Position numbers and translations under genes: made by a program
Notes under the pieces: generated by a model
Database searches by the model: none
Told to the model about the DNA's origin: nothing
Seen by the model: the letters and a program-made list of their open reading frames with translations, nothing else
Shown here: positions 142-63,565 of the stretch, in pieces
How the letters are laid out: every line of letters begins with the position of its first letter
Position numbering within the stretch: position 1 is the first letter of the stretch
Source: Amphirosellinia nigrospora
Lineage: Eukaryota; Ascomycota; Sordariomycetes; Xylariales; Xylariaceae
Length of the DNA: 64,000 nucleotides
Reading direction: 5' to 3'
NCBI GenBank assembly: GCA_004123355.1
Contig: SCHM01000001.1
Coordinates: 8,070,193 to 8,134,192, forward strand

Positions 142-2318
142 TCAACTCCGCCTTGGCCTGCCGGCTCGCGCCGGCGGTATCGACGCGCTTGAGGGGCGGT
201 AGATGGGATCCCACATCTGCTCGCGGATCCACTCCTCCAGGTCCGCGTCGTTGTCGGGGATGTGCTCCTCCGTAGCGACGCCCTCTTCGACGGCTGTCTT
301 GATGACCTCGCGGGCGACGCGAACGGAGACGCGCCGCACTTCCTCGACGCCCGGGAGTAGTGGCGCCGTGTCGTCTTTTAGCGCGGGGCTCAGGTCTGCG
401 ACGCCGCGCACCGCGGCCACGAGCATCTTGTCTGTCAGTAGCTTGGCGCGGCAGAGCACGGCGCCGAGCCCGATGCCCGGGAAAACGACGCTATTGTTGC
501 ACTCGGCAACGTCGATGCTGACTTCCTTACCGTCGGCGCCCCATGGGCCCTTGACCGGCTCGAAGGGGCTGCCCGTCGCTACCAGGGCCTTGCCGTCTGT
601 CCAGTTCAGGATGTCTTTCGGCACAGCCTCGTGGAGTCTAGTGGGATTCGAGAGCGGGAAATTACGGGTCGCGGGGTGTTTGCGGCCATTTCCTTGATGA
701 TCTCTTCCGTGAAGGCGCCTGGTTTTGTGGAAGTTCCGATCAGCACGTTTGGGTGCACCTCCTTGATCACGGAGAGGAGGGCGGTCCTTGTCAGACCACT
801 CTGACGAGTCTTTCGCAAATATCTTTTGGCCATCGTCTAGCTTTGAGTCCGTGGTCAGAATACCCGGTCTGTCAATCAGCCTATTACGATGTTAATAACA
901 GAAGAGCAACAGAACCCTCGAGGTTGGCGAGAGAGAGGAATGATGAAACTTACCAGATCTGTTTCGCAGCCTCCTCTTTACTTATTCCCTTCTCAGCGGC
1001 AATTGCATCCCGCACTTGATCTGCAATGCCGACGCCAGCAGTACCGGCCCCAAAAACAACCAGTTTGAGGTCTTTCAGCTTCTGTTGGCTAACATGGAGC
1101 CCAGCCATGATAGCCGCAAGTGTGACGCATCCGGTCCCTTGAACATCGTCGTTGAAGCAGGGGATTTTCGGTCTATAGTGATCGAGGATCCTACGGGCTA
1201 CCGAAAAAAAGTCAATATTGCAAAGCCTCAAGCTACGCTCAGAGGCATGATAGGATTTATATACCGTTTGTCAATCCGAAATCCTCAAAATGGATATAGG
1301 CCTTGGGGAACAGTTTCCGAGCATTCCGGACAAACTCGTCGACGAATTTGTCGTATTTCTCGCCGCGGACTCGCTTCTGCCGAAGCCCGAGATACAGCTC
1401 GTCGTCCAGTAGTTTTTCGTTGTCCGTGCCGCAGTCCAGCACGACAGGAAGAGTGCGGTTTGGATGGACACCGGCGCAGAGAGTTGTCAATACTAGCTTT
1501 GCTACCGATATCAGGATACCCCCAACGCCTTGATCGCCTATGCCGAGGATCTCTTCGCCATCTAGTAGCTATTAGCGGGTCTATTACATCCCCCACGATT
1601 TGCTATTTTATTGGCGTTGGAACAGTTCGCTGTTGCGCACCTGAGACGACAATGTAGTCGATATCCTCTGGGTTTCCCCATTGAGCTAGGTCGTGAGAAA
1701 CTCTGTCTATATTCTCGATGTTCAAGAAGCATCCCTCTGGTCTTCGAAAAAGACGAGAGAAGTTCTGTATAGCATCGCCTTCCGTCGGCGTGTAGACGAC
1801 GCCAAACATTTCCTTGAGGTGATCTTGTAAAAGCTATTAATGATTAGTGATGCGCGTCATAGTGGTACATATTCCTCGTCTCTAAGGCAGAAGTTGGGAC
1901 AAAGACGATCAGTGTAGAGAAATGAAGCAATGCTTACCTTGAAATATAAGACGGCATTTTGCTCCTTTAATGAAGTTAAAAATGTATTCTTGGCGAGATC
2001 GTCGGGCCTCGTCGAGTACTGCTCATAAGCGCGTTTGACCTGCTGTTCGAGAGTCTGGACGCTCTGGGGTAGCAAGCCAGTGAGGTTGAATTCTTCTCTT
2101 TCCTCGGCCGTGTGGGCGGATCCGCGATTAAAGTACGGCGTGTTCAACAACACAGTTCCATTGACAGCGCACTCGATAGGACCCCGCGTGCTTAATGGCA
2201 GGTGGGAGAACTTGGATTCGGACATCTTGAGACGGCAGCTTGAACTTGAGAAAGCTAAGCGGAGGTTACTGGAAGGCTTCAATGACAAGGTCCGCCAAAC
2301 GGGACGGAATCTATGCAT
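142..2318 (-). CDS. MAE1: NAD-dependent malic enzyme, mitochondrial
   Basis: Oxidative decarboxylation of malate to pyruvate. The start at 2318 gives an Arg/Ser-rich presequence (MHRFRPVWRTLSLKPSS), suggesting mitochondrial import. Family landmarks in order: RGPIECAVNGT, VVYTPTEGDA, GEEILGIGDQGVGG, FEDFGLTN, FNDDVQGTG, the Rossmann glycine motif VVFGAGTAGVG, GTSTKPGAFTEE, ECNNSVVFPGIGLG and the terminal EEWIREQMWDP. Five exons fit: 1938-2318, 1641-1833, 1265-1561, 954-1197 and 880 downward; every junction restores the family sequence. Three frame breaks lie in the last exon: near 785 (one base extra or two missing), near 662 (T run one short, between RPVI and FPLSNPTRL) and near 196 (C run one short, after DPIYRP). 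With the last corrected, the tail reads YRPLKRVD and the stop moves to 92-94. The frame as sequenced stops at 142. The identity is firm; NAD rather than NADP preference is inferred from mitochondrial targeting. Confidence 0.93.
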
Positions 2319-2834
2319 GAGGGAAATGAGGGTACACAAGCCGGGGTAAAGAGACAACCATCTATGGTCACGGTCAAGAACGTGGTTAAGTTGACATCAT
2401 ATCACGAGAATGCGACTTCTTGTTTTGAGGTGCTCTAGTTTGCTAAGGTAAAGTAGTACCGAGTAAGATGAATAGTGCAAGCATTGAACCCACACGCAGG
2501 TGGTACTAATTGATGTTTATGTGACGTCGTTGCAGGTTCACGTGCAAAAGAACGACGCTGCGGGGGCAACGTTGTCTATCAAGCTTTCCCCCAAGTCTAC
2601 CTAGGTAGACATCTGGGCCTCTAGATAGATACCTAGGTAACTTCCAAAGGGGCCGGATTCATTACGTAGGCCTTTTTCAGCTTTAACTGATAGCTGACTG
2701 CGCACAACACTATACGACGTATGACGGGCGGGATGTTGAGGCGGTAAGCTTTATTATCGAATGATATATACCTATGCAATGCCCTGCAGCTGATAAGCAC
2801 AACAGGGAGGGGGCCATCAGTAAGAGGAAGAGTG

Positions 2835-2877
<43 letters not shown>

Positions 2878-3961: not shown

Positions 3962-5240
3962 CTATGCGACAACCACATTAATATAGTAGGGGAACTCACA
4001 TTTGTCGCCAATGTCAATACCGGACTGCTGGCTCTTGGTGCAGGCAATGGCTTGCGCATCTGTCTGTCTCTTGAGCGGCGCACAGCGATCACCTGAGCAT
4101 TTGCCGTCCATGGCTTTCTGGAGGGCATCTCCTTGCCAGCCGAATAGGTAGTCTATATATTAGGTCAGAGTCCATATTTCCATTCATGATAAGAGTTCCT
4201 TGGAGTCGCGGGAGCGGAATATGTCCGTTAAGGCAGTTCAAGTCTCCGAGACATGCCAAAAGAGGAAATAAAAGACTCTAGCAACTTACCTCCGTGAAGC
4301 CCATAACCTGTGTTGTCGCCCATGCTCCAGTACCAGGGGAGTGAGCCATCCTCGGGCCACTCGGCCTTGTTGTTGAACTGGCGCGTGTCGAACATGATCT
4401 CATACATGATCTGGGGGATCTTGACGGGGTGCGTCGAGGGGCACGCGCCGCCGGACTCGAAAGTGCCGGACGCAGGGTACGCGACGTGGCTCTTGTGGTC
4501 GATCGAGTCCAGGTTCACACCGTCCCAGCAGCTGGGGAAGTGGACCGACACACGCCAGCCGCCGCCGCAGGGCTCCTTCGGGAACGCCTGGGTGTCAGAT
4601 CCCGTGCAGGGCGCGCCACCGAAGGGGTTTTGTTGCATGTTGGCTTCGCAGCGGTAGCAAAGCTGCTTCTGCATCGTCGCCTGCTTGCGGTTCAAACTGT
4701 CACCGACAAGCATGCGGAAGCCCTGATTTCTTATTGTTAGCCCATCCATCGCTTCGTACGTGTTACATTACATAGCGTCAACCTACAGGCTTGAATGCCG
4801 TGACCTTGGCGGTAGGCTGGTATCCTCGAATGTAATAGACGGTTACACCCGCCTGGACGCCGAGACCAAGATTGGCGACCTGGGGAACACGCTTGTAGGT
4901 CCCATTGCGAGCTTTGAAGTAAAGGTTGGCCGTCCTGTTGCTGTCAGAATTATGACTAAAAGTTGGAATGAGGGTCAAAATTACCAGTAGTTACTGAAGT
5001 CCTCGCTGTACGTGCAACTGGTACAGGTAGAAACCGTCGGGGGTCGTGGCTCGCTGGGACCATGCTTGCGTTGAACGAGTTTCCGCCAACGACTTGATGC
5101 ATGTGCGCAGATGGGCTGTTGCCAGGCTCGACTAGAGGATCAACCTGATCGATGACGAGCTGTGAGCATCCAAAACGCATCAGCTCTTGTGCTGCAGTGA
5201 GCTGCACCGCCAAGGCGGGCACAAGGGTTTTGAACAACAT
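3962..5240 (-). CDS. Secreted DUF1996-domain protein
   Basis: The start at 5240 gives a signal peptide (MLFKTLVPALAVQLTAAQ) directly followed by the DUF1996 opening ELMRFGCSQLVIDQVDPLV. Other family signatures are HMHQVVGGNSFNASM, NLYFKARNGTYKRVPQ, GFRMLVGDSLNRK, CYRCEANMQQNPFGG, HFPSCWDGVNLDS, DHKSHVAYP and PQIMYEIMFDTRQF, followed by a Cys-containing tail ending INVVVA. Three short introns fit: near 4935-4983 (joining NYW to TANLYF), 4721-4788 (KP to GFRM) and about 4155-4287 (GLHGG to DYLFGWQG). One frame break sits in the G5 run at 5039-5043, where a sixth G would let SHDP continue into the expected TVSTCTSC. DUF1996 proteins are secreted and often wall-associated in fungi; their biochemical role is unknown. 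Confidence 0.9.
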
Positions 5241-9000: not shown

Positions 9001-11778
9001 ATGCATGTTAATGTGTTGAGTTATTTAGCACTCTATTTGACTTGTGTCACTGGCCGAGCCCTTTTGCCGTCAAACGACAATAGCTCGTCAGATGCGGTCG
9101 ATGTAAGGTGGCTCGAAGGCAAGCCGGCCTTAAATCTTGGTGCTACCTTCGGGTTGCCTTGGCCGAAAGGCAAACATCTTGGGGACCAAGTCACTTTCGC
9201 TGCTTTGACCGATAGTGGCGAGGATGTGGCTCTTCAATCATGGGTAACGTCATGCTGGGCCGATGGTTCTATCAAGTGGACAGGTCATGCCATTCCGGGC
9301 TCCGAATCAGTACCCGACGGGTATAAAGTCACGGCCTCCAAGGGGGCTTCCCGAACGATTAAGGGGCGATCTATTGGTGTGGACAATGCACAGGACGAAA
9401 TTACGGTCGATACGGGGAAAATTACAGCTTCGTTTCCGAAATCTGGAAGTGTACTTCTCAGCTCTTTGAGCACATCTAGTGGGAAGGTCGTGGGCGCGAA
9501 CGGCAAACTCGTTTTTACATCACAATCGGGGGTTGTAGAATCTGGGGATAGCCCAGTGAATAAAGACATTGACTACTACCAGTTGGAATCCAGCATCAAT
9601 ACGACAACGGTGGATGAGAATAGTTCAGTCCGAACGCTGGTCACGATTCGCGGCGACCATCGTATAGCCAGCGATAAATCTTCAGCGACGCATAGTCCTT
9701 GGCTCCCGTTTACGCTGCGTTTCTATTTATACGCCGACTCTGACACGATTAAGATAGTACATACCCTTCTTTTCGATGGGGAGGCGGACAAGGATTTCAT
9801 AACCGGAATCGGGCTTCGTTTCGACATCCCGCTAGCTGGCGAGGAGCTATACGATCGTCATGTCAGGATCGCGGGCGTGGGCGATGGCTTTCTAAGCGAA
9901 GCCGTACAAGGGATTACCGGTTTGCGCAGAGATCCGGGTGAAGCGGTTCGTGTCGCTCAATTCGAAGGCGAGAAAACACCAGACGTCGCCACATGGGCTA
10001 CGACAGTCAATTCGAGATTGCAGTGGATTCCGGCTTGGAATGATTATACGCTTACACAGCTATCTCCCGATGGATTTACGTTGAAGAAGCGAACCAAGTC
10101 CGGGCAAAGTTGGGTTAAGATTCCTGGGGGCACGCGGGCTGGTGGATTGGCTTATCTCGGAGGTGCTACAACGGGCGGTTTAACTATTGGACATCGCGAC
10201 TTCTGGAAGCGATATCCAACTAGCATCGATGTCTCGAACGCGGCTACGGACACAGGCCAAATTACGTTATGGCTATACAGCCCAGCCGGTGAACCTATGG
10301 ACCTGCGCCCTTTTCATGATGGCCTGGGAGAGGACACGTATGCTAAACAGCTGGACGCGCTGGAGATCACATATGAGGACTATGAAGGCGGATACAATAC
10401 CCTCATGGCATCGGAAGAACTAACGAGATATTCATTCGGCCATTTGACAGCACGCCATCGTCGGATGAGCTCGCATCGTTAACTAGTTTTATCAATGAAC
10501 CGCCGGTGTTAGTCCCACAACCTGAGTACATCAAGCAAACCGAAGCCATTGGGACTTACTGGGATGTGCCAAATAACAAGACAGCAACACAGGCTGTGCA
10601 GACTATTGAGACGCATTTAGATTTCCTTAACAAATTCTATCAGGGACAAGTGGAACAGAGAAAATGGTACGGCTTCTGGGACTACGGGGACTTCATGCAT
10701 ACATACGATACAGACCGTCACGTTTGGCGCTACGATGTCGGCGGATACGCCTGGGATAACTCAGAGCTATCACCGGATCTGTTCTTCTGGAATTATTTCC
10801 TCCGCACAGGCCGTTCAGACGTTTATCGGTTTGCCGAGGCCCACGTCCGACATACCAGCGAAGTTGACGTCTACCACTTGGGCCCCTATAGTGGGTTTGG
10901 CACTCGCCATGGCGTAAACCATTGGTCAGATAGTGCAAAGCAGATTAGGGTTTCGACGCCAATCTATCGACAGATTTTCTACTATGTATCCGGCGGCGAC
11001 GAACGTATCGGTGAACTACTCCATGACCTCATGGATGCAGACAAAACTTTTCTCACAGTCGATCCACGACGGAAGGTCCGCGATGACAATGGCACTTATG
11101 TCCCAGATCCGACAGCTATCGACCTCGATCTCGGTATTGACTTCTCTGGGCTCGCAGCCATCTGGCTTATCGAGTGGGAACGCCGAGGGTCACGCTGGCA
11201 AGAGGCTAAGTCGAAACTAAACGCCACAATGCACGGCATTGCGTCGTTGAAAAACGGCTTCGTAACAGGCGTGGGACTATATAATATCTACACCGGAGAG
11301 GTCAAGCCACCAGCCACAGATCCGGATAATCAGGGTGACGTTGCGGTATCGCATCTCTCCGCGAGCTTCGGACTTCCTGAGATCATCGCCCAGATCACTC
11401 AATACCTGGGCGATGACTTACCGGAGGCCTTTGACAAGGCGTGGTTAGATTACTGCTATTACTACGCGCGCAGGTGGAGATGAGCAGAAGGCACGGTATG
11501 GGGAGTCGTTTGGAAGTCTGAACCTCCACCAAGGACACTCGCGATTGACAGCCTATGCGGCGAAGAGACTAGGAAATGCGACACTTGCTAAGAGAGCGTG
11601 GAATGAGTTTTTAAACACGGATGGCTTCGCGCCAACGGCGCCTTGGGCGAGTGTGCGATTGAATGGCAGTGAGGTCCTGGCGTCTGTGGACGAGGCGGCA
11701 TGGATTTCGACAAATGATGTTGCGCTGTACGGTTTGGCCGCTATTGAGAACCTGGCGCAAGTGGGAGATGCACTATGA
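9001..11778 (+). CDS. Secreted exo-rhamnogalacturonan lyase-like protein (PL26, PcRGLX/YetA family)
   Basis: The protein matches the family of Penicillium chrysogenum PcRGLX: an N-terminal RIFT-type beta domain (VDVRWLEGKPALNLGATFGLPWPKG), a central beta-sandwich (HSPWLPFTLRFYLYADSDTIK, GIGLRFDIPL, GHRDFWKRYP) and a C-terminal alpha/alpha toroid (QRKWYGFWDYGDFMHTYD, YAWDNSELSPDLFFWNYFLRTGR, GTRHGVNHWSD). These enzymes release unsaturated galacturonosyl-rhamnose from rhamnogalacturonan I, a pectin backbone. I chose the ATG at 9001 over the in-frame one at 8866 because it begins a clean signal peptide (MHVNVLSYLALYLTCVTG). The coding frame breaks twice: near 10402 (a C run one short; the next frame continues GIGRTNEIFIRPFD) and near 11467 (frame resumes with AGGDEQKARYGESFGSLN). 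No intron is seen. Joined length is about 925 residues. Family confident, exact substrate inferred. Confidence 0.88.
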
Positions 11779-13005
11779 TCAGTATGAGGAATTTGTTGCC
11801 AAGTTCTTCATGAGAGCGACGACCCTCTCACGCATAAAGAGGAAATTAAGCTATTTAGAACTGGTGCACAGACCACCTACCACATTGCCAGGGCCCCTGC
11901 CCATCTGTTCTCACGTGACTGCACACAATATTATAGGCTAAGAAAATAAGAAAACCCTCCAATCGTGGTTTCGGACCTCCGAGAGTTCGATGGTTTCTTG
12001 GTGTAATTGGCTAGCACTGCGGATTCTGATTCCGCCAATCTGGGTTCGATTCCCAGGGAGACCTAAGTTTAAACTTTTATCATGGCAAGGTTTGATTTTT
12101 TTTTACTCTACGGAGGTTATGTACCTAGATAAAGGTCTATATAAGGGCACGTAGGTCGGCGGCAGAGTAGTAGAAGTAAGAACTGCTAGTAAAAGCGTCG
12201 TATTATATATTACTACAACTATACAGCTAGTATGGACGCCCAGTAACGTTTTTTGACCGACTACTAAACAAACTATTTTCCCAACCTTTTACCTCACCGA
12301 CTACACGCTATTTGTACGGCCAAAACGCCTGGAGTACGCTATACTGCAGCTGTGTAGGAAGACCGTACGTATGACCGGTCGTCTCGGAATTTTAAACAGT
12401 ATAAAAAAATCTATAGGTTAATATCCATAAGTTAACCTATTCAAAACCCAAAAAAAACAAAAACAAAAAAAAAACAATGGGTTTTCCTTGGGTACCTATT
12501 TCCGACCCTAATTCATGGGACCGAATACATTTTATTTTTGACCTTTTTCCATTGATTGCATCAAGTACAAACACAATGCAAAAGCAGGTAGCCATGTATT
12601 GTGCTGTGGCGGGGTAATACATTTCTTCATTGACCCAGCAACTTCAAACAGAACTTCGGGTAGATGCGTAATTGCCTGCGTCACTCCGGTCACTCTTCAA
12701 CAACGTTTTAGAACTACAAACGGCTTAATTGAATCTGACTGGGCAATATTGTGAGTCAAGTAGTAGGTGCCTGCCGGAGATTCTGCGGATTTGTAGCAGG
12801 TTACCAGGCAGGCGAGGAAGCAAGGCTTTCGTGGAAACTCTACCAATGTTGCCATTTCGATCTTATGTCTATATCTTGAATACTTTCGTTGTAGGCTTCA
12901 TTCAAGCTTATGCTTTCTGAACTCTCAAGCGAGGTTACTTGATCACGAAACGTCCCGTCAATACATTCCAGTACATCTTTAAACCTCGGCCACATCTACT
13001 CAACC
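11779..13005. other. Intergenic with tRNA and AT-rich tract
   Basis: Apart from the tRNA, the stretch after it (about 12080-12480) is AT-rich with long A/T runs and a 9-bp inverted repeat (ATAGGTTAA at 12413-12421, TTAACCTAT at 12432-12440). It could be a decayed mobile element next to a tRNA, but no coding remnant or terminal repeat pair is visible. Confidence 0.5.
11992..12064 (+). tRNA. tRNA-Gln (anticodon CUG)
   Basis: A 73-nt cloverleaf without intron. Acceptor GGTTTCT pairs with GGAGACC (two G-U pairs) and the discriminator is T. The D stem is GTG/CAC. The anticodon stem GCGGA/TCCGC encloses the loop TTCTGAT, giving CUG, which reads CAG glutamine codons. The T arm is CTGGG-TTCGATT-CCCAG with the canonical TTCGA loop serving as internal promoter box B. 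Confidence 0.95.
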
Positions 13006-17180: not shown

Positions 17181-20100
17181 ATGCCGTCCAAGAAACGCAA
17201 CAAAAAGAATCGCATGTCTGGCAACGGCCACGGCCACGGCCACGGCAGTTCAGGTAGGTATTCCAATCCTATAAAGACATCAACTTGAATACAGGCTTCT
17301 AACGTTTGTAACTCTAAGCTGCTAATGGCAACTCAGCTCAGCGTCGGCCTTCGAGCTCCTCCAACTGGGAGGGAATGCCGTCGCGCCAGCCTACCGGTAT
17401 GTTATTTTTAATCTACTTCTCTACCCATAACTCCCCTTCCACACCCGCTCCCGTACCACTACCTCCATACCAATTTCGACAACCTCGAAATCCTAATTTC
17501 ACCTCCTTTCTAACCGTCGACTCTTCGGAAATAGGAACTCTTGTGAGACAGAACCGGCCCCCGGTGTCCGGGAGGCAAGAGGTTGCGCCAATCTGGTCTT
17601 GGCTCACAAACTCCATTTCAATTGCCGCCACAGGGCGACATGTCAGACAGCGAATACCTACGACTGGTTCGTGAGATTAACCCGGCCCCGATCCCGTCTA
17701 TGCCGAGCCGGGCCGGCCAAGTATACGGTGACCATCGCGACTATATGACACGTGAACAGATAGAACAGTCTGGCGGAAGCCAGTCCGATAGCCATCATCT
17801 AACCCGAAATTCCCCAAGTCTCGGAATAACCAGTGGTATTTCGCAACCCCGGATAATACTCAACCCATCTACTACACAATCAGGTCGTAATACAGGACTG
17901 TCCCGTTCCTCAGCTCGTTCAGATCAACTCATCGACGAGGTTCCATACACATCGTCATCAAGAGGGCGAGCTGGGCATGATAACCCTTTTACATCGCAGC
18001 GCCCGAAGTCCTCGAAGGCGCGGAAGTTTAGCGACCGTGACTCAAACCCATCTCCGCCTGGCTTCAAGCGCTTTCGACGAATTGAGGATATTACTGATCA
18101 AGAAGAGGGAATTTGCGATAGAAACCCTTCTAATAACACCACCTTGCGCTTTTCTCGACGTGACCGCGTTCACGAAGATGGTTCACACTCATCTCAGTCG
18201 GGCATGACAAACGCAGCTAGAAATCTTCCTACGAATGCTCTTGGGATTATGAACCCACCCGAAGCCGCCGCCATGCCGCCTCCGCGTTGCGGTAATATCC
18301 TAAGCGATGGTTACAACATCTTCAACTCTTCCATCATGGGTCGAGTAGCAGTGCTCTGCGAACGGTCCCGGTTAAGAAACACGCCGGAAGCGATCGTAAC
18401 GCACCATCAGTTGGCAATGGCCGACGATCTTTATTACCAAGGCATCTGGAGAGGCAAGTTCCTAGTTAAAAACGAATATATTATTGAGTACCACGATCCG
18501 GCTACATCCCGCCCTGAAGTCCCTGATCATCTGCGCACCGACCGTCGCCTAGTCATGGCCCATATTCTGAGCCACGGTACACCACAATGGTACTCGAACA
18601 TAAATGGAAACGTACTCATCCCCGCCGCGGAGCAAATGAACCTTGATTCCGGTGAGTTCCGTGACACATTGGACCTTTTGCAATATTTCTACATTCGCGT
18701 CCCCTGCTCTCCGAATCTTGATCGATACGCAGAACTGGTTGCCCCATTGCACGTCGATCGGAGTCGTGAAGCGCGCATCGAGAACGAGAGGCTCGTCGGT
18801 ATGGCCCCGGGATCTGATCCGGCCACTGCCGCTCTGCGTATCGCCACGCCGGCCGAGGAAGCTTCAGCTGAGGCGAGGATGGCGACTCGCTATATTCCTC
18901 GTGTCCGTCACAACGATTCGCCTTCTATACCTAGCAACACGCCCCCTACCACGGCTGCGCCCGCTGCGCTCCTTCCCCCAGCAGCACAAGTATGACCTCG
19001 AATGCAACAAACCCTAGTCCTGACTACTTTTTCCTAGATCCGGACGGAAACCCAAGTGTGCTTGCTAATCCAGTTGCCCCTCCTAACCTCATGGATCTCG
19101 GCTCTAGCGCCTTTAACTCATTCTCGAATCTGGGTGTGACCATAAATGAGTCTACTACTCCCCTACCTGCTGTCAGCGCCGGGGGTTCGACTACAACAAC
19201 TTCAACTCGTTCACAAATTTGGGTGTAGCCTCAGGCGAGTCTGTTCCTCAGATTCCTACTTCTAACTCTGGGGGATTCAACCTCAGCAACTTGAATCAAT
19301 CTACTAATATAGGTGTGACTTCGAATCAGTTTGGTGCTCCTCTATTTGCTTTTAATGCTGGGGAGTCCAACTTCAGCAACCTTAATCCACCTCCAGATTT
19401 AGGTATAACAAATCAGATTATCGCTCCTACTCCTACTCTCAACTTTGTGAACTTCGACTTCGACAACTTTAACCTACCCCCAAGTCTTGATGTAGCCAAT
19501 AATTCTGTCGGCCTCCTTTCCGCTACCACTGGTGAATTCGGCACCGGCAACTTTAATAACTTGTTCACGATTCCGAGTGTAACTTCAGGCGAATCTGCTG
19601 CTCCACGTCCCGCTATCGAATCTGGGGAATTCTACTTTGGCAACTCTAACTCGGTTTCGAATCTGGGCATGCCCACAAATGCTCCAACCCTACCCGATCC
19701 CGCGGCGGCGCCTCCCATCGACACTCCCACGGCCGAGGATAACGCAGCTTTTATGGAGTTCTTCGAATTTAATGGAGGTGAAGATGAAACTTCAGCACTG
19801 GGTATTCCATCTACTTCTGCTCAGATGCTTTCGTCCGACAATACAAATGCAGCACTTGATTTCACCAATTCCTTTACTCCGTCCTATCCTAGTACATCTC
19901 AGGATCTGGGTGCCATTCCGACTTTAGTAGGCACGTTTCATGCACCACCACAGTCCCCAAGCGATATGCTATTAAACACACCCACTGCACACACAGCTAC
20001 ATCTCTGCCCTTATTGATCGACACAGATACAACTCCAGCTGCAGCAGGTGCTGACTCCCATCATCCGACATCACTCTCTACTCCGGGCGCGCCTCCGATA

Positions 20101-20586
20101 GCGCCAGTTATGTCTATAGCTACTCTTGCCACTCCTGATAATGGCAGCAACCCTGAGAATTCTCATTCCGGAGAGAACCAGTTTGAATGGGACCCCTCCG
20201 TATACACTTGGCCCGACCCTGGTCACCCTTTCCCTGGAAGCGCCACCCAAAACTATCCTGACGATTTTGGTTTCAATGCGCCTCCTGACCCTGGCATGCT
20301 CCATGCCCCAACAACAACGTTTACCCCGATTAACGCCAACTTGGTTGGTAATAGCTCGGTCGATGTTCAAAACCAATGGGGCAGTGGTAATCAGTCTGGT
20401 GCCAGCAACCAGGTCGGCAACGACACACCTGCTGGCGACGATCAATCTAACTTCAACCCGGCGTTCGACGGAACCCTAGGCCCGAACGATCCGGTTCCAG
20501 ATGACCCTTCAGACGGACCCTCAGAGAGTGATTCTTATAGTCCGAAGTTAGACGAGGATGAGGGTCACGGGTTTAGCGAAAACTAA
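17181..20586 (+). CDS. Unrecognised large disordered protein with repeat region
   Basis: Function unknown. Exon 1 (17181-17253) encodes a basic start, MPSKKRNKKNRMSG, then (GH)n. Exon 2 is 17337-17396 and exon 3 starts at 17552. The N-terminal third is Ser/Arg-rich with KR clusters, possibly nuclear (inference). Residues encoded by about 18270-18800 look folded (MGRVAVLCERSRLRNTPEAI, YYQGIWRGKFLVKNEYIIEY, DTLDLLQYFYIRVPCSPN). The rest is Pro/Ser/Thr/Asn-rich with seven degenerate repeats and an acidic end (DEDEGHGFSEN). Three breaks, each at a five-base C or G run, interrupt the frame: about 17558 (C5), 18977 (C5) and 19172 (G5); a sixth base joins all parts into one protein of about 1,080 residues. 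A 72-nt intron-like segment (20621-20692, CTAAC branch) lies in the 3' UTR. Confidence 0.65.
19081..19710 (+). repeat. Seven degenerate protein repeats of about 28-33 residues
   Basis: In the corrected frame seven units follow a loose pattern G/E-F-x-F-x-N-x-N-x(3)-N-L-G-V-T-x(2)-E-S-x-A-P-x-P-A. Visible cores are FNSFSNLGVT, YNNFNSFTNLGVASGES, LSNLNQSTNIGVTSN, FSNLNPPPDLGIT, FDNFNLPPSLDVA, GNFNNLFTIPSVTSGES and FGNSNSVSNLGMPT. The DNA has diverged well beyond identity, so the repeats are old rather than a recent slippage product. Confidence 0.75.
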
Positions 20587-31003: not shown

Positions 31004-34000
31004 TCAACCATTCTCTTCACCGTCGCTAGAGTCATCATCCGACTCACTCAACTCTTCTAGGGGTATCATGTCATCATCTCCACTTGCCGCTTCCTCAACA
31101 TCGTCTCTTGATGCTTTATCCGAATCATCATCCGAATCATCATCCCCACTGAAACCTTCAAATTCATCGTCGTCGCTTTCGCTATCGTAAGCTTCGTCCG
31201 CAGTCTTTGCGTCAGCTGCCAAGTTTGCGATGGGCTTTGAGGCCGAAGAGACATTCTCATCTATGTCGTCTCTTTTCCGCTTCCTGGGCATTTCGCCTAG
31301 CCGGCCTTCACGGCCCTCGATAACATCGCCCGCATTCTCTGTCTCGGTCTTCGGTGCTGGTGTAAACCAAGGGATCTTCCCTCGCATGAAATCTATCCTA
31401 ATAGTTAGTGACAAGGGAGACTGAGCGTGGACGGAAAACGAGCACGCTGCGGAACACAAAAATATAGGGGGCATACCTGTAAGGACCATTTTTGCTACAC
31501 CGTCAAGATCAACCTCCCCTATACATAACACTGGAGTCAGTAGTGTCCACTTATAGTAATAATTACTCAAGTCTCAGAGACTTGCAGGAGGATCAAGAGC
31601 AGAAAGGCAGTCTACGGCTCCGACACATCGGAAGTGGTAATAAAAGACTCCGGCGACTTACCTGCTTTCAATATCTTCCTCCTTTTCGACCGAGGATCTC
31701 AAGAAACTCATGGTGGTCCTTCCAATTTTTTATCTCGTAAGTTCGCTCAACTGCGAGAAATTAAGAATTAGAAAATATCATTTGGCAGGAACTTAGTTCT
31801 TGATTGGAACGCTTTGGGGACACGCATGAACATATGATTTAGGAGTAGAACTTTGTGGAATTCGGGAATAAACGACTTAAAATACTCACGATGATGTCGT
31901 TTCACTTTCTCCATCATGGGAAGAATATATTGTTCAGGGTTGTCGACTTTCTCAATCCTTACGACTCCGCGGAGGAGAATGTCGGCTGGGGAATCCCCGG
32001 CATTAGGCGGAACAATTCGGGACAACTGCTATGGTTAGCATCGAAAGTCCAAATCTCCTCGCTTTTAGAGGCGAAACAACTAACTCGATCAAATATATAC
32101 GTTTCATCAATGTGACAAATTGCCAGACTTTTGTCTCTCCGGGGATTGGTGCAACAGTACAAGTCTTCTTGGATTTTAAGGTATTGATTAGGCTGGACTT
32201 TCCTGTTATTTGTTCCATTATCAGTATATCGAATTTCTCAATAGGGTATTGCTTAAGGAATCATACCGACGTTAGGGTAGCCGATCAAACCCACGCTAAT
32301 TTGTTTTCTATCCTTATGAAGATTTGAGAATTGACGTAGGAGTGAGATAAGCTGTCCCTTGCCAAAAGAGTTTGTTATCGAGGAATGGAAAGCCAACGTC
32401 GGCACTTCCTTCGATAAGGAGCGCACCCATGCAGCCTAAATCGAGTCAGCAAATGAGCTCTAATACGTGATAAGAGAAATAAACGCGTGTAGAAGCGGAA
32501 TGTATGAATCGTAACTAAGAAGTCTGCCACAGACTACCTGAGAGCGGTAGAGGCAGACTTCAACTCAGTGAAACACGGCGAAACTAATGAGAGGGTCCCA
32601 AAACGGAACTCAATCAGCTCTCCAATCCGAAGCTGGAGAGCAGCAAGTTTGATATTTGATTTTCCAATGCTGTAACAGATAGCTTCCAGGGAAGGGCAAT
32701 AAAGCAGAAAGTATCCTGACAAGAGCATTGGGACAAATTGAGGGGGGAGCCACAGAACAACAAGATACTCACAGCAACTGAAGTCGGGATTAGGTCGACT
32801 TTGTTGAGGATGAAAATTAAATGTTTATGCGGGGCTTCCGTTTGAAGATACCGCTCCACTGCACGGCATCTGGTTCCTTCAGGGTTGCGGGCATCTGTTT
32901 AAAATTAGAGGGATTAGAAAATTGTCTAACAGTAACAATAAGAGGTTTACGAAAAACACATACCTAATATATGAAGGACCACGTCACTTGAATCAAGAAC
33001 CTTGTACAGCTCATTCCATATTCTCCGGCTTTGCCCTTTGTTGAAAACAGGTTCGATAGCCATTGACAAGGCGTCTGCCTCGCCGTCCTCAGTCTCACCC
33101 GCGCCGCTTAGGAGTCTGGCTTGTTCTAAACGATCATTATATGTGTCCATGCTAGTCACGGTATCATCGGCGAAGTGACTCAGAGAGTTCACATTCAGCT
33201 TTACACGTTTACGCTGCGACTTGGGTCCACTGCGAGAGAGGCTATTAATATCGATCGGAGTCGTAAAGAAGAAATATGAGATATTAAACTTAGGATAATA
33301 TAAAAACGGTCAACTTACAATGTATCCGAAAAAGACGCCGTTTCGATTGTCATTTTCGCTTGGTGCTGTTTTAACCCTGGCGTATCGGAGGGCTCCCGGA
33401 GAAGAGCCATTGGGAGTTTATTAGATTTTAAAAGGACGGAGTAGGGATCTTTAGCTTTTTCCGCCATAGCCTGTCGAAATGTCGTGAGGGAGTCTTGAGA
33501 GATCACTCTCGTATTGGAAACCATCTGCGATCAGGTTCTATCCTGGCGACGGGCGCATCTCGTGACTCTGAGGGTCATGTCAGTAAGTCGTGACCATTGG
33601 ATATGCGAACGGCGGGGAGGGACAAAGGTCGTCATTCGTCCAAGAGAGTAACGTACGGTATTTGGCAGCTCTGCAACACAGTTAGAAACCCGTACCTTTC
33701 TACCGGACATGAACATGACAGCGAACTTACTGAACAATTTTCCCCTCGGCGTTCCTTCGCGGACCGTGGTCCTTACGAATATTCAGGGCTCTAATCCTTT
33801 TCGCATCTCTATAATTGCTTGTTAGGACTCGCTCTTTGCAGAAGTAGCAAGAAACCCCCACCACAGTCCTCCTTACTTTCTTACCTGTAGAAGTTTTCAC
33901 CTGTAATACTTGGAGTTAGTCATTGCCATCTGGAACTGATTTACAAGTGCTTTAGAGGCTGCCAGACAGTCTTTTATCCCCGACAGAGAAGACCTCATGT

Positions 34001-35918: not shown

Positions 35919-38900
35919 CTACCTTCTCTCCACAAGCAGGAAATGCATCGCTGCGTATGCCAAAACAACAAAAACAGCAGCAAAGATGCCTAGATTGATG
36001 ATATCCATCCATTTCGCCCCGTTATCAAAACCGAACGAACTTAGAATCGCGGCACCTGGAACTGTGATATCTAATCCGTATTTCTTGTCCACAAGCGTCA
36101 GCTTGACCACCTCATTGACGATGAGTGCTTCGAAGCCGTAGTGGAAAATGGATAGGGACTGTAGCCACAGTGCTGCGTCGGGATCTTATTATGATTTAAT
36201 AGTAATCCGGCAAATAACAGGGAGAACAACATGACTAAGCTGCCGATCAGGTTGGCGACACCGCCGTCCTTGCAAACAATGCCTATGAAAAAGCAAATAG
36301 ATGCAGCTGCAAGATTGAAGAGGACTAGAGTCAACATGAAGGTGAAAAAGTGGGGTGCATCTGGTATGAGGCCCGTCATAGGATAGATGATGGCACCCAT
36401 AATAATTGGAGGGATGATCCTCAGAGGGATAATATCAAAGAGAACTTTGGCCGAGAAGTACGTGATGGGGGAATAATACCCATTTGCTCGTTCGCGAACA
36501 AACAAGAGTCGCTCTGAAGCAAACACATTCAAGCTCGTGAGGGTACTAAAGCCGAACAGAGCGAGTAGGAAGAAGAAAAGACCGAGTCGGTTCTGAAAGC
36601 CAGGTATATCGTCCGTCAGGCCGTAGAAGAGATAGCCAGAGAGAACCGCCAAAACGATGGCGATAGCGTAATGAGTTAGCATTAGGAGTGGGTTGCGGTA
36701 CAGGTTCCTCCATGTGCGTTGTGATAGAATAATGAATTGTCGAAGATAACTAACTCGGGCATAGCCACGACCAATCGCACTACTGTTGCCGTTTCCAACT
36801 ACGGCGCCATTTTGTCCGTTGGCCTCACGTGCAGTAGCCACGGCCTGCTGGATTTCGTCGTGAGTGTTCTCCGCGATATCAGATTCAGCAAATGACTGAA
36901 CGAGGGTATCTAGGTTGGTTCCGGCCGCTGGAGGAAGATCGTGAACATCTTCAACAATAATTTGAGGCGGCACAACACCAGCAGGCTGCTTATGAAGCTT
37001 GTATGCTCCAGCTTCTTCTTCCACATCAGAGGATGCGGCCGTATCAGCAGTATGTTTACGTCGAGTAAAAAGCTCCCGTTCTTGGCGAGCCCTAACTGAG
37101 TTTTTGCGTTGGTTCTTCGGCCGACTGGAAGATGGCTCGGCAATAGAGCTTTCCTCGGCGGTGCTGTTACCCGAAATACTGGCTATCGACTTGACGGCCT
37201 GGGTACTGCTTGGACCAACGCTGCTCGCAGTATCGTTTAATACACTGCCATCATCGAAGAACCCCGCATTGCTAGCGTGCATAGTTAGGTCAACAAGATA
37301 GTCGGCAATATTGAATCCCGGCGGGCACGCATAGCCGACCTCATCAAAGTATTCCTGGCACCGCGAAAAGGGCCCTGAAAACACAGTCTTGCCTTGAGCC
37401 AGGAGGATGAGGCGATCGAACAAGGCAACAATGTTCGATCTTGGTTGATGAATGGTGAAAATGACAGTGCGCTTATATGTCTTAGCCAAAGTCACTAGAC
37501 ATTCAATCACATTGTAGGCGTTGTAAGCATCAAGACCACTCGTCGGCTCATCGAGGAACAAAATTGATGGACTTGTAACAAGCTCACAAGCAATGCCGAC
37601 GCGACGTTTTTCACCGCCTGAAATACCACGTCCCTTGCCCTCTTCGGAGCCAATCAATGAGTCTCGGATATGATAAATACCAAGTTGTTTCTCGACTTCA
37701 TACACCCGTTGCTCCTTGGCGGCGCGGCCCATGTGTCGAGGAAGTCGTAGAAGAGCACTCGTCAGGATGGTCTCATGGACTGTGAGAGTAGGCAGCATTG
37801 TATCCTCTTGATCAACAAATCCTATGACGCTCCTGAAATCGGTATCGGTAACCTTTTCTCCATTCACATAGAATTCTCCAGAAAAATGACCCCGTTTGTT
37901 CTTGCGCGCAAGGATGTCCAGGAAACTCGTCTTTCCAGCACCAGAGGCACCCATGATGGCGGTAATTTCGCCAGGATGGGCAATTCCGCGAATATCACTG
38001 AGAATCGGTTTTCCGTTTAGACCATAACTCACATTTTCAAAATACAGCGAGGCTGGTTTATGGTCCGTCATGAGTTTCGTGGACTCGTCGTCAGAATCGT
38101 CCAAATGGATGGCTCCATACTTATACTGGCGGCGGAAAGATACCAAGTGACTAAAATAACAGCCACAACGAATAGAGAGCAACCAGCAATGACACCGGCG
38201 ATGAGAGGCGTATTGATGGTCTTTACGGGTCGCTGGTATCCAGGCACTTCTGTGTGGTAAAGACATTCTCCGGATCGACAGTCTAGCTCAATGCTTTCGT
38301 CCCGAATATGCTCCGTACCATCCAGTCAAGTTGAGGCTCCTTGAACTTGCATGTATTCACGCCACCATCTTGTTGTAGGCATTCGAACGTGGCTGGGCCC
38401 TCGACAGATTCTTTCAGGAAATCGGTTAGATCTATGGAGCCTTCAAGGCCACATAGAAACCGATCCGTAATACAGCTACATTTGACGTCGGGGCACTTAT
38501 AATATGTGCTGTTCTGGTCGGAGGTGAAAGTTGCGCTCGATTCACATTTCTCGAGATGGCAATAGAAAGACTCGACTCGATCAACCCAGACTGCGGGAGT
38601 CGACATCAGCTCAGTTCGGCCAAAATAATCAGCGTTACATAATAGTTACTCACATTGAAAGTCACAGAAACCACTCTGCTTGTCACAGGCAAAAGAAGCT
38701 TGGGGTATCTTGCCGTCAAGCATGGAGAGAATCTTCTCGTTAGTGACACCACACATCTGGTAGTTGTTCTTCACGACCTCGCCATTCTGATAGCACACGC
38801 CATCCTCACCAGTTTCCATCAAGGCATTACACGCCTTGTCCTCGGTGCAAACGTTGCAGTTGACTCCCGTCCAGCCGTCGTCGCACTCGCAGGTGTCACC

Positions 38901-45607: not shown

Positions 45608-46895
45608 ATGGTGAAAATCCCCGCCTTCGAAGTTGAGCAATGGATGGATGCGTATGAGACCACACCAGGCGTGTTGAACATAGCCGAGACATGCGCATCA
45701 TCAATATCCCTCTCACAGCTCGCGGAATTCCACAGTAAGAGCAAAGATGGCTCCGCGCCGCCCGTCCTGGACTTCTCACGGCCGATGACCTACGGCGCGA
45801 TCAGGGGATCAGACGAACTACGGCGGAACATCGCCGCCTTGTACTCCGAGGGAGAAGGCGGGGCGCCTTGGCACAAGAAGACATTATCGTGTCGCCTGGC
45901 GCCATCGCAGCGAACCACCTCGTGTTCTACAGTCTCGTCGGACCGGGGATCACGTGGTGTGTGTGTTCCCGACGTACCAGCAGCTGTACACGATCCCGGA
46001 GACGCTAGGCGCCGAGGTCACGCTGTGGAAGCTGAAGGCTGAAGATCAGTATGTGCCGGACGTTTCTGAGCTCGAAAAGCTGATCAAAAAGAACACGAAG
46101 GTACGTGTTTTAACAGGTTCACATTTCGCATTTCAGAGGTTGATGTGCATCGATTGAGAAAAAAAATCATTGACATCGCTACCAGATGATCGTAATCAAC
46201 AACCCCAACAACCCAACAGGAGCTACAACTCCTAAGGCCGTGCTAGCAAAAATCGTCGAGATAGCCCGCAAGCACGACATCATCGTGTTCTCGGATGAAG
46301 TCTATCGGCCCCTTTTCCACGGAGTCACCGACGCCGACATCCCCCGTCGGCGCTCTCGCTAGGCTATGAAAAAGCGGTAGTAACCTCGTCGATGTCGAAA
46401 GCCTGGGCACTAGCAGGCATCCGTCTAGGCTGGATCGCGTCCCGCGACAAAGGCATTATCGAAAAACTCGCCATAGCGCGCGACTACACGACGATCAGCG
46501 TGTCGCAGCTCGACGACCAGGTGGCGCGATATGCGCTCAGTGCAGAGGTGCGGCCGGCGCTACTGAGACGGAATGTAGAGCTTGCTCGCACGAACTTGGC
46601 ACTGCTCGAGAAGTTCGTGCAAGACCACGCCGACGTCTGCTCGTGGGTGAAACCGACGGCCGGTACGACGGCATTTGTCCGGTTCTCCCACAAGAATGGC
46701 CAGCCTGTCGACGATGAGGCTTTCTGCAAGGACGTGTTGGATAAGACCAAGGTCATGTTTCTTCCTGGCACGCGCTGTTTCGGCCATGGCCATGACTTCC
46801 ATGGATACGTACGCATTGGCTACGTGAATTCTACAGATATTGCACAGAAGGCGCTTGAGAAGCTGCATGATTATGTAGTGGAACACTTGAATTAG
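45608..46895 (+). CDS. PLP-dependent aminotransferase, class I/II
   Basis: Fold-type I aminotransferase. Start MVKIPAFEVEQWMD at 45608. Motifs in order: GAIRGSDELRRNIAALY, DIIVSPGAIAANHLVFYSL, VVCVFPTYQQLYTIPETLGAEV, the Asn motif INNPNNPTGAT, FSDEVYRPLF with the pyridine-binding Asp, and SSMSKAWALAGIRLGW with the Schiff-base Lys. The C-terminal domain contains VKPTAGTTAFVRFSH and MFLPGTRCFGHGHDFHGYVRIGY with the carboxylate-binding Arg. One intron (about 46100-46184) joins IKKNTK to MIVINNP. Breaks near 45875, 45948 (G4 run) and 46341 (C5 run) each fit one missing base. About 415 residues. The sub-family resembles fungal aminotransferases of amino-acid or secondary metabolism; substrate unknown. 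Confidence 0.88.
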
Positions 46896-47360: not shown

Positions 47361-48167
47361 TCAACCAGTATACTTGGCAACGGTCTTGTAGAACTCCTCG
47401 CCCTGGACAGTGGCGATCTCGAGCTCCTTAGCGCTAGGCTGGCGAGAACCGTCGCCGCTGGCGAAGGTTCCGGCACCCCACGGTCCACCACCATGTACCT
47501 ATCAAATAAGGTTATTAAAGTTATGATTGGGGTTGGGATGAGTTAGGTTACCTCGCTGAGGTCAGACATGGCAGCAAAAGCCTTGGCAAACCCAAAAGGC
47601 ACGTAAATTATGCCGTGGTGAGCGAGTGTCGACATGGCCGCAATCGCAGTCGACTCCTGACCACCACCCAGGCCGGCGGTGGAGATGAAGAGGCCGGCCA
47701 TCTTGCCGTAGAAGCCACCGGTGGCCCACTGCTGGCCGTCTTGTCCCAGAACGTCTTCCACTGAGCGGGAAAGTTACCGAATCTCGTTGGGATACCCAAC
47801 AAGAAGGCGTCGTACTGAAGTAGGGTGGCTGGGTCTTCGAGGAGAGGAACGTCCTTCGATTGGCCAGGAGCGTACATTTTCGAGAGAACCTCCTGTGGCA
47901 GTGTCTCGGGATTTGGTACAGATCGACAGTACCGCCAGCCTTCTCAATACCAGCCTTCTCGGCAGCGGCCAGCTTGGCGATATGGCCGTACATGGAGTAC
48001 TAAGGAAGGCTATCGTTAGCTTCGTAACGACTAGATCGCTCTAGGGGAGCTGAGATCTGAAATGATGGGCGTGTAACGAGTATCATGGGATCAAGTCCTA
48101 ACCAAGCCCATTATTCTATAGTAATAGGAGGGGAACTTACGTAGACAATTGCGATCTTAGGAGCCAT
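47361..48167 (-). CDS. NAD(P)H:quinone oxidoreductase, WrbA/flavodoxin-like
   Basis: An FMN enzyme that reduces quinones by two electrons, guarding against redox cycling. Exon 1 is 48141-48167 (MAPKIAIVY); exon 2 starts at 47999 ([11 protein letters not shown]), together forming the flavodoxin phosphate-binding start. Other landmarks: [66 protein letters not shown], then a third exon with [20 protein letters not shown] and [12 protein letters not shown]. About 205 residues, normal for WrbA/Pst2. Breaks near 47912 (C run one short, IP then [11 protein letters not shown]) and near 47745 (DKT then GQQWATGG). It converges with the aminotransferase. Confidence 0.92.
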
Positions 48168-54056: not shown

Positions 54057-55177
54057 ATGCTTTACGACCTCAACATCGCGTGGTCACCGCACACGAGCGC
54101 CGCAGAACTCGAGCGTACACTGCGCTTTAGCGCATCACTTGGCTACGATGTCGTCGCGCTGAACTACACCATCGGGGGGGCAGTACCACCGCAAATCACG
54201 AATCCGATCCCGAAATTTGATTCTCCCGCCGCCGCCTCTTCGACATCATCAACGTCGCAGCCTAAACTTCCTACCGTCCTCCGCCGCGCAACCCTTGTCC
54301 TGACCGAGTCCTCGCAGCATCACCGCCTACCACAGCTCGCGTCTGCGTATGATATCCTTGCCGTACGTCCGCAAACCGATGACGGGTTCTCAGCGGCCTG
54401 TCAAAGCCTCAACGATGTCTCCATAATATCGTTGGACCTGACGGTACGCCAACCCTTCACCTTCCGCCCGAAGCCCTGTATGTTCGCCGTGAATCGCGGC
54501 GTCCGCTTCGAGGTGTGCTATTCCCAGGTTCTACAAGGCCCGACGGCGGCGCATTTTCTTGGACCTAAGGGCTCAAAGGACGGCAATGGTGGCCATACTG
54601 GTGGCACGGGGTAGTAGCCGTCGACGCTCGGGCTCGCGCGACCTTCATTGGCAACGTGTCGTCCTTGATCCGTGCGACCCGTGGCCGTGGAATCGTAATA
54701 AGTAGCGAGGCGAAGTCCGCGCTGGGCCTGCGCGCCCCCGCTGATGTGGTGAACTTACTTCACGTATGGGGTTTATCAACAGATCGCGCCACAGAGGGGA
54801 TAGGTGTATTACCACGCGGCGTCGTCGTCAACGATGGGCTAAAGCGCAGCGGCTTCAGGGGAGTCGTGGACATAGTTAACGTTGCCGACCGCGAACAAGC
54901 TGACGTCGAAATGGGCGAGGCAGACGATGACAGTGTCAAAACTGCCGGAAACGCCCAGAACAACAAAGGCAAAAATAAGAAGCAAGATATGAACGGTTTA
55001 GGAGGGAAGAAACGAAAGAATGGGGATGACGCCGAACCTTCGGCCCCTACAGGTGCAAATGGCAATGCAAATTCGGTCGGTGATGGTGAAGAACAACCGA
55101 TTAGCAAACGACAAGCAAAGAAAATGAAGGCTGCTTTACGAAAGAAACAGGCAGAAGGAGACGTAGCCGATCTGTGA
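54057..55177 (+). CDS. RPP1: RNase P/MRP protein subunit Rpp1 (p30)
   Basis: A TIM-barrel protein subunit of nuclear RNase P and RNase MRP, acting in tRNA 5' and rRNA processing. The ATG at 54057 is chosen over in-frame upstream codons because the family begins M-x-YDLNI; here MLYDLNIAWSP. Family segments: SASLGYDVVALNYTI, LPTVLRRATLVLTES, YDILAVRPQTDDGFSAACQS, IISLDLTVRQPFTFRPKPCM, AVNRGVRFEVCYSQVL, then GIVISSEAKSALGLRAPADVVNLL and WGLSTDRATEGIGVLPRGVVV. The C-terminal tail is acidic then Lys-rich (KGKNKKQD, KRQAKKMKAALRKKQ), suiting the nucleolus. One break at about 54607: a G run one short (GTG then VVAVDARARATFIGNVSS). About 370 residues, no introns. Confidence 0.92.
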
Positions 55178-59930: not shown

Positions 59931-60958
59931 CTGCAGTATGTGCCAATCAAGGGTGGTATCGTTGGTGGGTTCTTGTTGTGTGTTATCGAGGCGGCGTCTA
60001 GACGTCCAGGTATGATGCATCAGAACCTGAGATGCCCTACGTACGTACCACTTCGAGGTTTGCCACTGAAAGCTGGCTGGCCAAATACACTACCCGAACG
60101 TTACTTACTTGAAACGCTGTAAGACTGTCCAATGCACGTGCGGGATGCTCGTGTAAAAGCGAATGAAGGCGTGTGATCAATGCGCAGCTAAGCTGGAAAG
60201 CACTACGTTACGAACGGGTTACCGGAAATGTTGCTGTGCCTATATTGCATCAATAACAACGCGCCCACCCCGCTAGCATTGCTATGGTAAACAAGGAGCT
60301 GTGTTTCCGGGTTTATATAGAGGAAGCTCAGTGTGTTTAGGTGGCTGCGTTGCTCGGATATAACCGTTATGTAGTGTATTGTGCTACTAACTATTCAAAT
60401 GTTTAGGTCAGTCACGAGCGAGATGCTCTTGTAATACTGTTTCGGCATTATATACTACTAACGTATGTAATCTATATAACACTCAAGGACCCTAGGCATA
60501 TGCAGTCATACATGTCTGCGATACCTGGCCGCTCCTCGTATCGCAGGTGCCAGGTCGACTGTTTAAAAGATGCATCTATTCTGTTGAACTAATCTCATTG
60601 GTAGTAACTAGAAATATATACGTGTATAAATACGTTTCGTTCGACGATTATTGCAATATATGGGCCACATAACATTGAAGATGAAGTGAACTATATACAA
60701 CATGATTGTTTCAAAATACCTAGAAACAATTATTTAGTATTACGAATAGGTAATATTAATAAGTCGCGAGAACAAACATAGAGCCTTGACAACGCTTTCA
60801 TCATGTGCTAAAACTGTATCAATCTACAATTGTTCTCTTCTCATACATTACTTATTCTTGCGCTATGTCAACTCTTGTACGTTATCCGCAGTAATACCAA
60901 ACACCCTATTTCCCAACAAGTTTCCCAGAACCCCAATCTAACCCACAACTTACCCGCC
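59931..60958. other. Intergenic
   Basis: Promoter side of the BTB gene and 3' side of the betaine-lipid synthase. AT-rich, no gene seen. Confidence 0.55.
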
Positions 60959-63565
60959 TCAGATCTCAAGAGAGGAGATCTCTGCACTGCCCATCGACTC
61001 CATCTCAGGAGTAGGCGGCGCGAGATGTTCCCTCTTCGTGCAAATCCAGCATGAAGCGTACATGTTCACGCGATCGATACAAGCGCCTCCCTCCCTAGAT
61101 CCCATGCATTTCGTCACGAAACCAAGTCTCACGAACTCCTTCAGGTACCAAGGCTTCAGGCCAGAGGAACGCAGCATGACGCGCCCGCCCATCTTGAGCG
61201 CGCGATTCAATTTCGTAATTTGCGATGCCGCTGCGTTCGACCCTGGGTCAAACCAATCCATACTATCCATGACCACGGCGACCGTAAGCGTGCCGGGCCC
61301 GATGCGGGCAAGAACCTCCTCGATCTCGTCTGTGTGTATGCGTAGATTGTCGAGAGCGTCCGGCCGCGAGAGGCGCGCGTGGGCTTTCGGCGATAGGTAA
61401 TCAGGGTGGCACTGCCGCGAGAACTTGCCGTCGAGACACACCAAGTAGTACGGATTATCTGCGGCAATGTGTGTCGACTCTACCATGGGATCGAGGGTAT
61501 TAACCATGTATTGCCAGACAGCGTGCGAGCGCGTGTTCTTGGCCGTCGGGTTCGGGCCGCAGACTGCGTCGGAGACTGCGTGGTCCGCCTCGAGAATGGC
61601 GAGTTGGTTCTTTGGCACACCGAGCGCGGTCCAAAGGAATGATTCTTGGCTTACGACGAACTTGGATACAAAACGAGATAGCAGCGCGGGGCGAACGCGA
61701 TTGCGCCAGATCTCGCGCTGCTCGTTGAGCGTCTTAGCAGCGAGGAGATCTTTGACGGCTGCTCGGCACCCGAAGACTTGCGTGATCGAACGAAAGATGC
61801 GGATTCCGTGTTTCGAGCCGCCAGTATCGTAGAGGCCGCCTCGAGTCTTGGTAAAGATACGGTGATTACTCAGCCAGTACTGGAAGGCACGGCTAGATAG
61901 GTGAGGCGACATCTTTTTCATAAGTAAGGATCGGAAGTTGGCGTGCTTGCCTTCGCCGAAAATCTTCCAGAAGTCCTCATATTCGAGCGACTGGTATGCG
62001 GCGACCTTGAGCTCTAGCAAGTGATTCTGCGTCGGGTTCAAGTCGACAGCGTGGATCCTAGCAGGACCTTGGAGTGCATAGGAAAGGATGTTGTCGCCTG
62101 CACTAGTGATGGCGAGAACGACATCGTCTGGCTTAAGCTTCAATATACGCTCATCGACACGTGTGTCTTCCCAGGTGAATGCGTAGATGTATTCGTCATT
62201 AAACTGAGTGTGCTTCTTTAATTGGTCGTCATAGTATATTCGATAGTGGTGGTTTTGATAGAAGAATGAAGGGAGGGGCAAGTTGGAAGAAAGATTGACA
62301 ATAGCAGCGTCGAAAGCCTTGGAGCGAATCTCCGGGCCGCCCTTATGTGTCGTTCGGAACAATGCATCTGAATGATTGGTAGGGTAAAGATACGGCGACT
62401 CGGTAACCAATGCATTGACTTTCTCTACAATCTCGTGTGAGAGAGAAGACGAACGCGGCTGCTTGCGTGCGCCTAGCCATATATAGTATGGAATTGCGCC
62501 AAGCACATAATTGCGATTGTTGACGTTTAGAACCGTACCGAAACGGTACTCAAGGTAATCACGGCGACCAGGCTCGAGGGCAACCCTATCAATGTCGAAC
62601 CACGCACGCCAGAAGGTTCTTCCTATAAAATTCACGTGACGATCAATAAGGCCCCCGGTATAGTTTCTGAAGCTGACATCGACTCGGGATTGAACGTAAA
62701 AGTCAACCACGCTGAGAATACCATTCGATGCTAACAGTGAAGCCAAAGAGTCGACCACAGAGTAGTAATCAGGCTGGAATATAGTTAGCACACCCAACAC
62801 GAAGTTTAGTGGAACACTTACAATCATGGACAGGCTATAAGACATAGTGATAAGGTCGGCGCCGACATGCCGTGGCTGTTCTTGGGAGAAATAACTACCT
62901 TCCGGGGAGCGAGGCCGATCGCTATGGGAGACTGGTTCATGGTCCTCCAAGCGGAACATCCTGGCATCTTGACATACGATTTTCACGTTCGTCCAACCCA
63001 GCCTAGCAAACCGCTTCCGAGCCACTTCACAAAGAGACGGCGAGAAGTCGACTAGGTATACACTATCGAAGAAGGTAGGTACGTCCACAAACTGCGACAT
63101 CGCTTCGATGTTCCAGCCAGTACCACCACCGATCTATATTTCCGGTTAGTAAGAAGTTAACTAGGAGTCGAGTATGGCTACCGACATCAACCCATATTTT
63201 CTTGGTGTTGTTTAAATCAGCTGTTTTGGCCTTGAAGGTGAGCTGGGCAGCTGCTAGGGCGAGCATATCCTCGCGGCCTCTGAGAAGGCGCCTCCTCGTC
63301 GCGTCATATGCGCCAGCCTGCGACTTGTAGAAGCTCTCAAGGGCGTCCTGCTGGTTGCCCTTGCTATTAGCCTCATGCGGCTTGAGGAAGCAAGAATAGA
63401 AGAATAGCCATAGGGACTGGATGAGGTTGGGATTCTCATTGTCTTTGGCTGTTTTGGCGGAAATAATAGAAAAATATGTCCCTGCGAGGAGGAACACTCC
63501 TATTCCTGCTAGGAACAATTTGAGCCCAAGTCGAGGGATAAGATGTTACCACCAAGAAAATCCAT
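60959..63565 (-). CDS. BTA1: Betaine lipid (DGTS) synthase
   Basis: A bifunctional enzyme making diacylglyceryl-trimethylhomoserine, a phosphorus-free replacement for phosphatidylcholine. The N-terminal half is the BtaB-like methyltransferase: SAM motif IWVDIGGGTGWN, then SVYLVDFSPSLCEVARKRF, VKIVCQDARMF and DLITMSYSLSMI. The C-terminal half is BtaA-like aminocarboxypropyl transferase: DERILKLKPDDVVLAITSAG, HAVDLNPTQNHLLELKVAAY, VVMDSMDWFDP and ALKMGGRVMLRSSGLKPWYL. Splicing joins WVD to IGGGTG across an intron with a GTCGGT donor; a 48-nt intron (62774-62821) lies within SMI-PDYYSVV. The start at 63565 (MDFLGGNILSLDLG) needs one extra G near 63527 to reach LFLAGIGVFLLAGTYF, a membrane anchor. 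About 845 residues, normal for the fungal fused enzyme. Confidence 0.94.

Follow-up and report, generated by a model that had tools for sequence, protein, structure and literature searches.

The stretch analysed here, a window of 64,000 nucleotides (bases 8070193-8134192 of contig C1 in the 48.1 Mb, 11-contig assembly of Amphirosellinia nigrospora), carries among others the genes for a malic enzyme, a DUF1996 protein, a PL26 (PcRGLX) protein, a low-complexity repeat protein, NOG2, an ABC transporter, an aminotransferase, a WrbA-like protein and RPP1. Many of these genes appear to change reading frame within conserved sequence. Such breaks extend genome-wide and are not local to the window. As argued below, they are very probably errors of the assembled consensus, left in an under-polished long-read assembly, and the genes are expected to be intact.

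To locate the breaks, the open pieces on either side of each of the 15 positions listed in the original prediction were compared, piece by piece, with Pfam and with the sequences of the Protein Data Bank (PDB). A break was called where the family alignment continues across a change of frame, and the room left for an intron between the two matches was checked; the strength of this family evidence varies, and weak and one-sided cases are included. Seven listed positions are supported in this way (662, 10402, 36183, 45948, 46341, 47912 and 54607) and an eighth, 19172, by an internal repeat, while 196, 5040, 17558, 18977, 38143, 38310 and 63527 were left undecided. Breaks beyond that list came to light at about 800 (weak), 11469, about 45860 and 47737, and a probable one near 32015 in NOG2 (Table 1). 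The prediction that at least twelve of nineteen genes are broken was not confirmed; family evidence for a break was obtained in six genes.

Table 1 Frame breaks in the window, by gene (positions in window coordinates).
Gene	Interval (strand)	Position of break	Original prediction	Evidence
Malic enzyme	788..827 (-)	about 800 (probable)	absent	Malic_M profile 64-94 (weak, E 0.18), then 83-140 in another frame
Malic enzyme	651..669 (-)	about 660	listed (662)	Malic_M profile 83-140, then 141-258, different frames, DNA abutting
DUF1996 gene	4933..5049 (-)	near 5040 (probable), with intron-sized gap	listed	profile 1-30 up to 5049, 50-94 from 4933
PL26 (PcRGLX)	10395..10412 (+)	10402	listed	central-domain match ends at 10401 (profile 331/360); next domain from 10500 in another frame
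PL26 (PcRGLX)	11458..11475 (+)	11469 (second break)	absent	PcRGLX_3rd profile 1-307, then 308-409, frames differ, DNA abutting
Repeat protein	19150..19225 (+)	near 19172 (probable)	listed	similar repeat units (FNSF.NLGV) in two frames on either side, by reading
NOG2	31990..32035 (-)	near 32015 (probable), GTPase G3 region	absent	by reading against the G3 motif
ABC transporter	36175..36190 (-)	36183	listed	ABC2_membrane match ends at 36179 (profile 187/211); one-sided
Aminotransferase	45847..45948 (+)	at least one break, probably two (about 45860; 45948)	45860 absent; 45948 listed	three pieces, each in its own frame, align collinearly with PDB 3op7
Aminotransferase	46329..46368 (+)	46341	listed	Aminotran_1_2 to profile 196, then from 209 in another frame
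WrbA-like gene	47895..47915 (-)	47912	listed	PDB 5mp4 chain 9-40, then 40-95, frames differ, abutting
WrbA-like gene	47730..47745 (-)	47737 (second break)	absent	PDB 5mp4 chain 40-95, then 94-156, frames differ, abutting
RPP1	54545..54626 (+)	54607	listed	RNase_P_p30 profile 1-153, then 153-211, frames differ; PDB 6agb chain from 161

The individual cases differ in how closely they are bounded. The malic enzyme piece downstream of the break at about 660 has a PDB match as well, and the family match stops short of position 196. The three aminotransferase pieces align with 3op7 at chain positions 2-77 (E 0.0098), 80-105 (weak, E 0.76) and 103-161 (E 5.6e-15), and the 38-nt gap in the DNA at 46341 fits the 12 residues passed over in the profile. 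Past 36183, the ABC transporter continues in a different frame with an 88-residue open stretch that matches no Pfam family. At 54607 in RPP1 the matches point to a frame break, with about 80 nt of slack that leaves formal room for an intron. The putative DUF1996 break near 5040 was placed by reading the frames; an intron-sized gap coincides with it, and the case is undecided. NOG2 was identified from its other pieces, whose best matches are the Nog2 chains of solved pre-ribosomes in the PDB, the top ones being fungal. The two pieces compared with the PDB share a single frame on either side of an intron, with no break seen between them; the probable break near 32015 was placed by reading against the G3 motif. 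Position 17558 is probably upstream of the start codon, since an in-frame ATG follows at 17640, so that no break is required there. The protein encoded at 17640-20583 is long and of low complexity, with recurring NLGV/NFSNLN-like units and a Pfam match in neither of its two long pieces. At 18977, 38143, 38310 and 63527, no family match was found on both sides.

We then searched the whole assembly with models of three core protein families, chaperonin (PF00118), HSP70 (PF00012) and the 20S proteasome (PF00227), and tabulated 25 genes outside the window with 35 junctions, each joining two adjacent hits within a gene; nine loci with a single hit and hence no junction (one chaperonin-like, three HSP70-like and five proteasome) were left out. 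The frame changes with no room for an intron at 17 of the 35 junctions, intron-sized extra DNA (52-152 nt) separates the hits at another 17, and one junction is unclear. The 17 breaks fall in 12 of the 25 genes, on contigs C1, C4, C5, C6, C7 and C8, and six of the nine chaperonin genes are broken while three are not. Thirteen breaks are firm; the less certain four, three in a gene at 6.1 Mb of C1 and one at 2.6 Mb of C4, lie in loosely aligned genes. This amounts to 0.4-0.6 breaks per kb, whether all 17 breaks or the firm 13 are divided by the 28.2 kb of tabulated genes (in which overlapping hits count double) or by the 32.2 kb reached once the nine single-hit loci are added. In five bacterial genomes taken as a control, the chaperonin and HSP70 models yielded 24 matches, and none of these was split.

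The breaks share a direction. A -1 change, the result of either a one-base loss or a two-base gain, accounts for 9 of the 11 window breaks with family evidence, read in the coding direction, and for 12 of the 17 elsewhere, the other five being +1 or -2. Pooled, weak and one-sided cases included, the -1 class holds 21 of 28 breaks (0.006 in a one-sided binomial test). Their sequence context was examined at 19 bounded junctions, drawn from 12 of the 17 core-family breaks and seven of the 11 in the window. The others were too widely bounded or lacked a locus, the 20S proteasome junctions counted above stayed outside this test, and bounds within the window were placed manually. Against random intervals of the same genes, with ranges spanning the padding widths used, long C/G runs are strongly enriched at the breaks: runs of at least five occur at 4 of the 19 junctions against 0.2-0.4 expected, a value reached by at most 0.07% of random sets, and runs of at least four at 4-6 against 1.2-2.3. 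Runs of at least three are found at 11-12 junctions against 5.9-10.0 expected, which 1.7-25% of random sets reach. A/T runs displayed no clear enrichment at these 19 junctions.

Genes for 5S ribosomal RNA (rRNA), which have no reading frame, provided a non-coding test. They are dispersed over many contigs (33 matches, 30 copies fetched) and comprise at least two sequence types, one of them with a block of linked substitutions. Counting was confined to 19 of the 33 matches, those of the main type; three lacked a locus, and 11 were judged by eye to belong to other sequence types and excluded. Ten of the 19 copies carry deletions relative to their consensus, in 15 events with no insertion, and 11 of the 13 single-base losses lie in C/G runs of at least three, which make up 18 of the 120 consensus positions. 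Otherwise identical copies elsewhere are intact. Over all 30 copies we counted 34 deleted, two inserted and 230 substituted bases, the substitutions being attributable, in all likelihood, mostly to the different 5S types. Losses of C/G of a like kind therefore occur where no reading frame exists.

Because the changes are genome-wide, biased towards loss, present in core and in non-coding genes, and accompanied by an excess of long C/G runs, we favour an under-polished long-read consensus as their source. Long error-prone reads, most likely of nanopore type, would have been assembled with too little polishing, both platform and polishing being inferred, and would have left a frame-breaking error about every 1.7-2.5 kb of coding sequence. 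The prevailing -1 change would most simply be one lost base, with C/G runs favoured. Sequence alone cannot tell a long-read from a flow-based platform, the two sources named in the original prediction. That prediction had also read the breaks as sequencing error and not gene decay, and here it is well supported by the genome-wide breaks, the strong matches of the core genes, the -1 bias and the 5S losses.

Several observations weigh against this explanation. The excess of C/G runs of at least three fades under wider padding, and 15 of the 19 junctions hold no C/G run beyond 2-3 bases (under the widest padding, 13 of 19 lack a C/G run above three). Most breaks lie outside clear homopolymers, and their description as mostly homopolymer contractions is too strong, holding only in part through the enriched runs of at least five. 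C/G runs of at least six are only mildly depleted in the window (9 seen, about 14-19 under Markov models), a shortage that decides little by itself, and A/T runs there reach 10, with those of at least eight not depleted. Among the 15 deletion events in 5S genes, seven share one C run and may represent a natural allele, and four sit in one copy, which is perhaps decayed. The five control genomes are bacterial, without introns, and not fungal.

Short spliced introns also shift the frame between exons and could be taken for breaks. They are present in NOG2 and other window genes, the 17 junctions with extra DNA do resemble introns, and a scan for GT-AG introns returned candidates at four of the 15 listed sites (10402, 18977, 19172 and 38143). 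The best-looking of these, 18990-19037, has a length that is a multiple of three and so leaves the frame change unexplained, and removal of the candidate at 10402 would delete family-matched sequence. At the 17 core-family junctions without extra DNA the matches abut or overlap in both DNA and profile, and there is no room either at the window breaks 660, 11469, 46341, 47905 and 47737; introns are excluded at such abutting junctions because no room is left between the matches, and as an account of the breaks in general they are highly improbable. Gene decay, local or genome-wide, would likewise produce broken frames resembling pseudogenes, and a few 5S copies may indeed have decayed. It is nevertheless very unlikely, because core genes are affected, among them RPP1 in the window and, across six contigs, members of the chaperonin, HSP70 and proteasome families. 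Over the genome as a whole, breaks are spread without regard to a gene's importance. Signs of lost constraint in the form of weak family matches or many inner stops were not observed; family matches remain strong between the breaks, 55 of 69 matched pieces in the three core families have no inner stop, and a fungus with six of nine chaperonin genes broken could, we infer, hardly survive.

If the breaks were real in the DNA, the frames might be restored later, by slippage or insertion editing of the transcript or by frameshifting in translation, and the preference for long C/G runs and for one direction would suit such a mechanism. Yet C/G losses are also present in 5S rRNA copies whose otherwise identical counterparts are intact, and no common site was seen by eye at the breaks. 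No system of this kind is known to us from fungal nuclei, although no search aimed at one was made. Restoration at the RNA or translation level is extremely improbable, and equally so is its most far-reaching form, in which slippage or editing by insertion at C/G runs in the RNA would act on both nuclear genes and 5S rRNA. Consensus error in an under-polished assembly remains the explanation that we adopt; the breaks are most likely an ordinary artefact and not a product of biology. The original observation is accordingly real in outline and its interpretation correct at the core, with details partly overstated.

Other features of the window include one tRNA-Gln (ctg) gene at 11992-12064, identified with ARAGORN, and, at 22923-23921 and 24607-25410, a gene with weak arylesterase/strictosidine-synthase-like matches and a GH18 chitinase-like piece. 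The latter two each occupy a single long open frame, and some window genes display no visible break.

At the error rate estimated here, gene counts, pseudogene calls, intron lengths and claims of gene loss taken from this assembly would be wrong, and gene predictions for this fungal genome are untrustworthy without accurate reads. A few core protein families, together with dispersed 5S genes, suffice to expose such errors without reads.

Published assemblies offer close parallels. In Drechmeria coniospora, nanopore-only assemblies contain broken conserved genes, with errors mostly in homopolymers (PMC7500977); the likeness lies in a chromosome-level fungal assembly whose conserved-gene frames are broken mostly by homopolymer indels. 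A difference speaks against our explanation, in that polishing there added more insertions than deletions, whereas here -1 changes prevail (PMC7500977). Long-read bacterial assemblies similarly contain short indels, many in homopolymers, that produce false pseudogenes, although these are bacteria with reads and reference genomes at hand (Kastor, PMC12007338). Nanopore assemblies of filamentous ascomycetes show, at low coverage, indels in and outside homopolymers that lead to frameshifts, while at 100x coverage three inspected genes were without indels (PMC9453082). For Rosellinia necatrix, the completeness of nanopore assemblies is given as 68.2-82.5%, compared with 97% for an improved one (PMC10796067).

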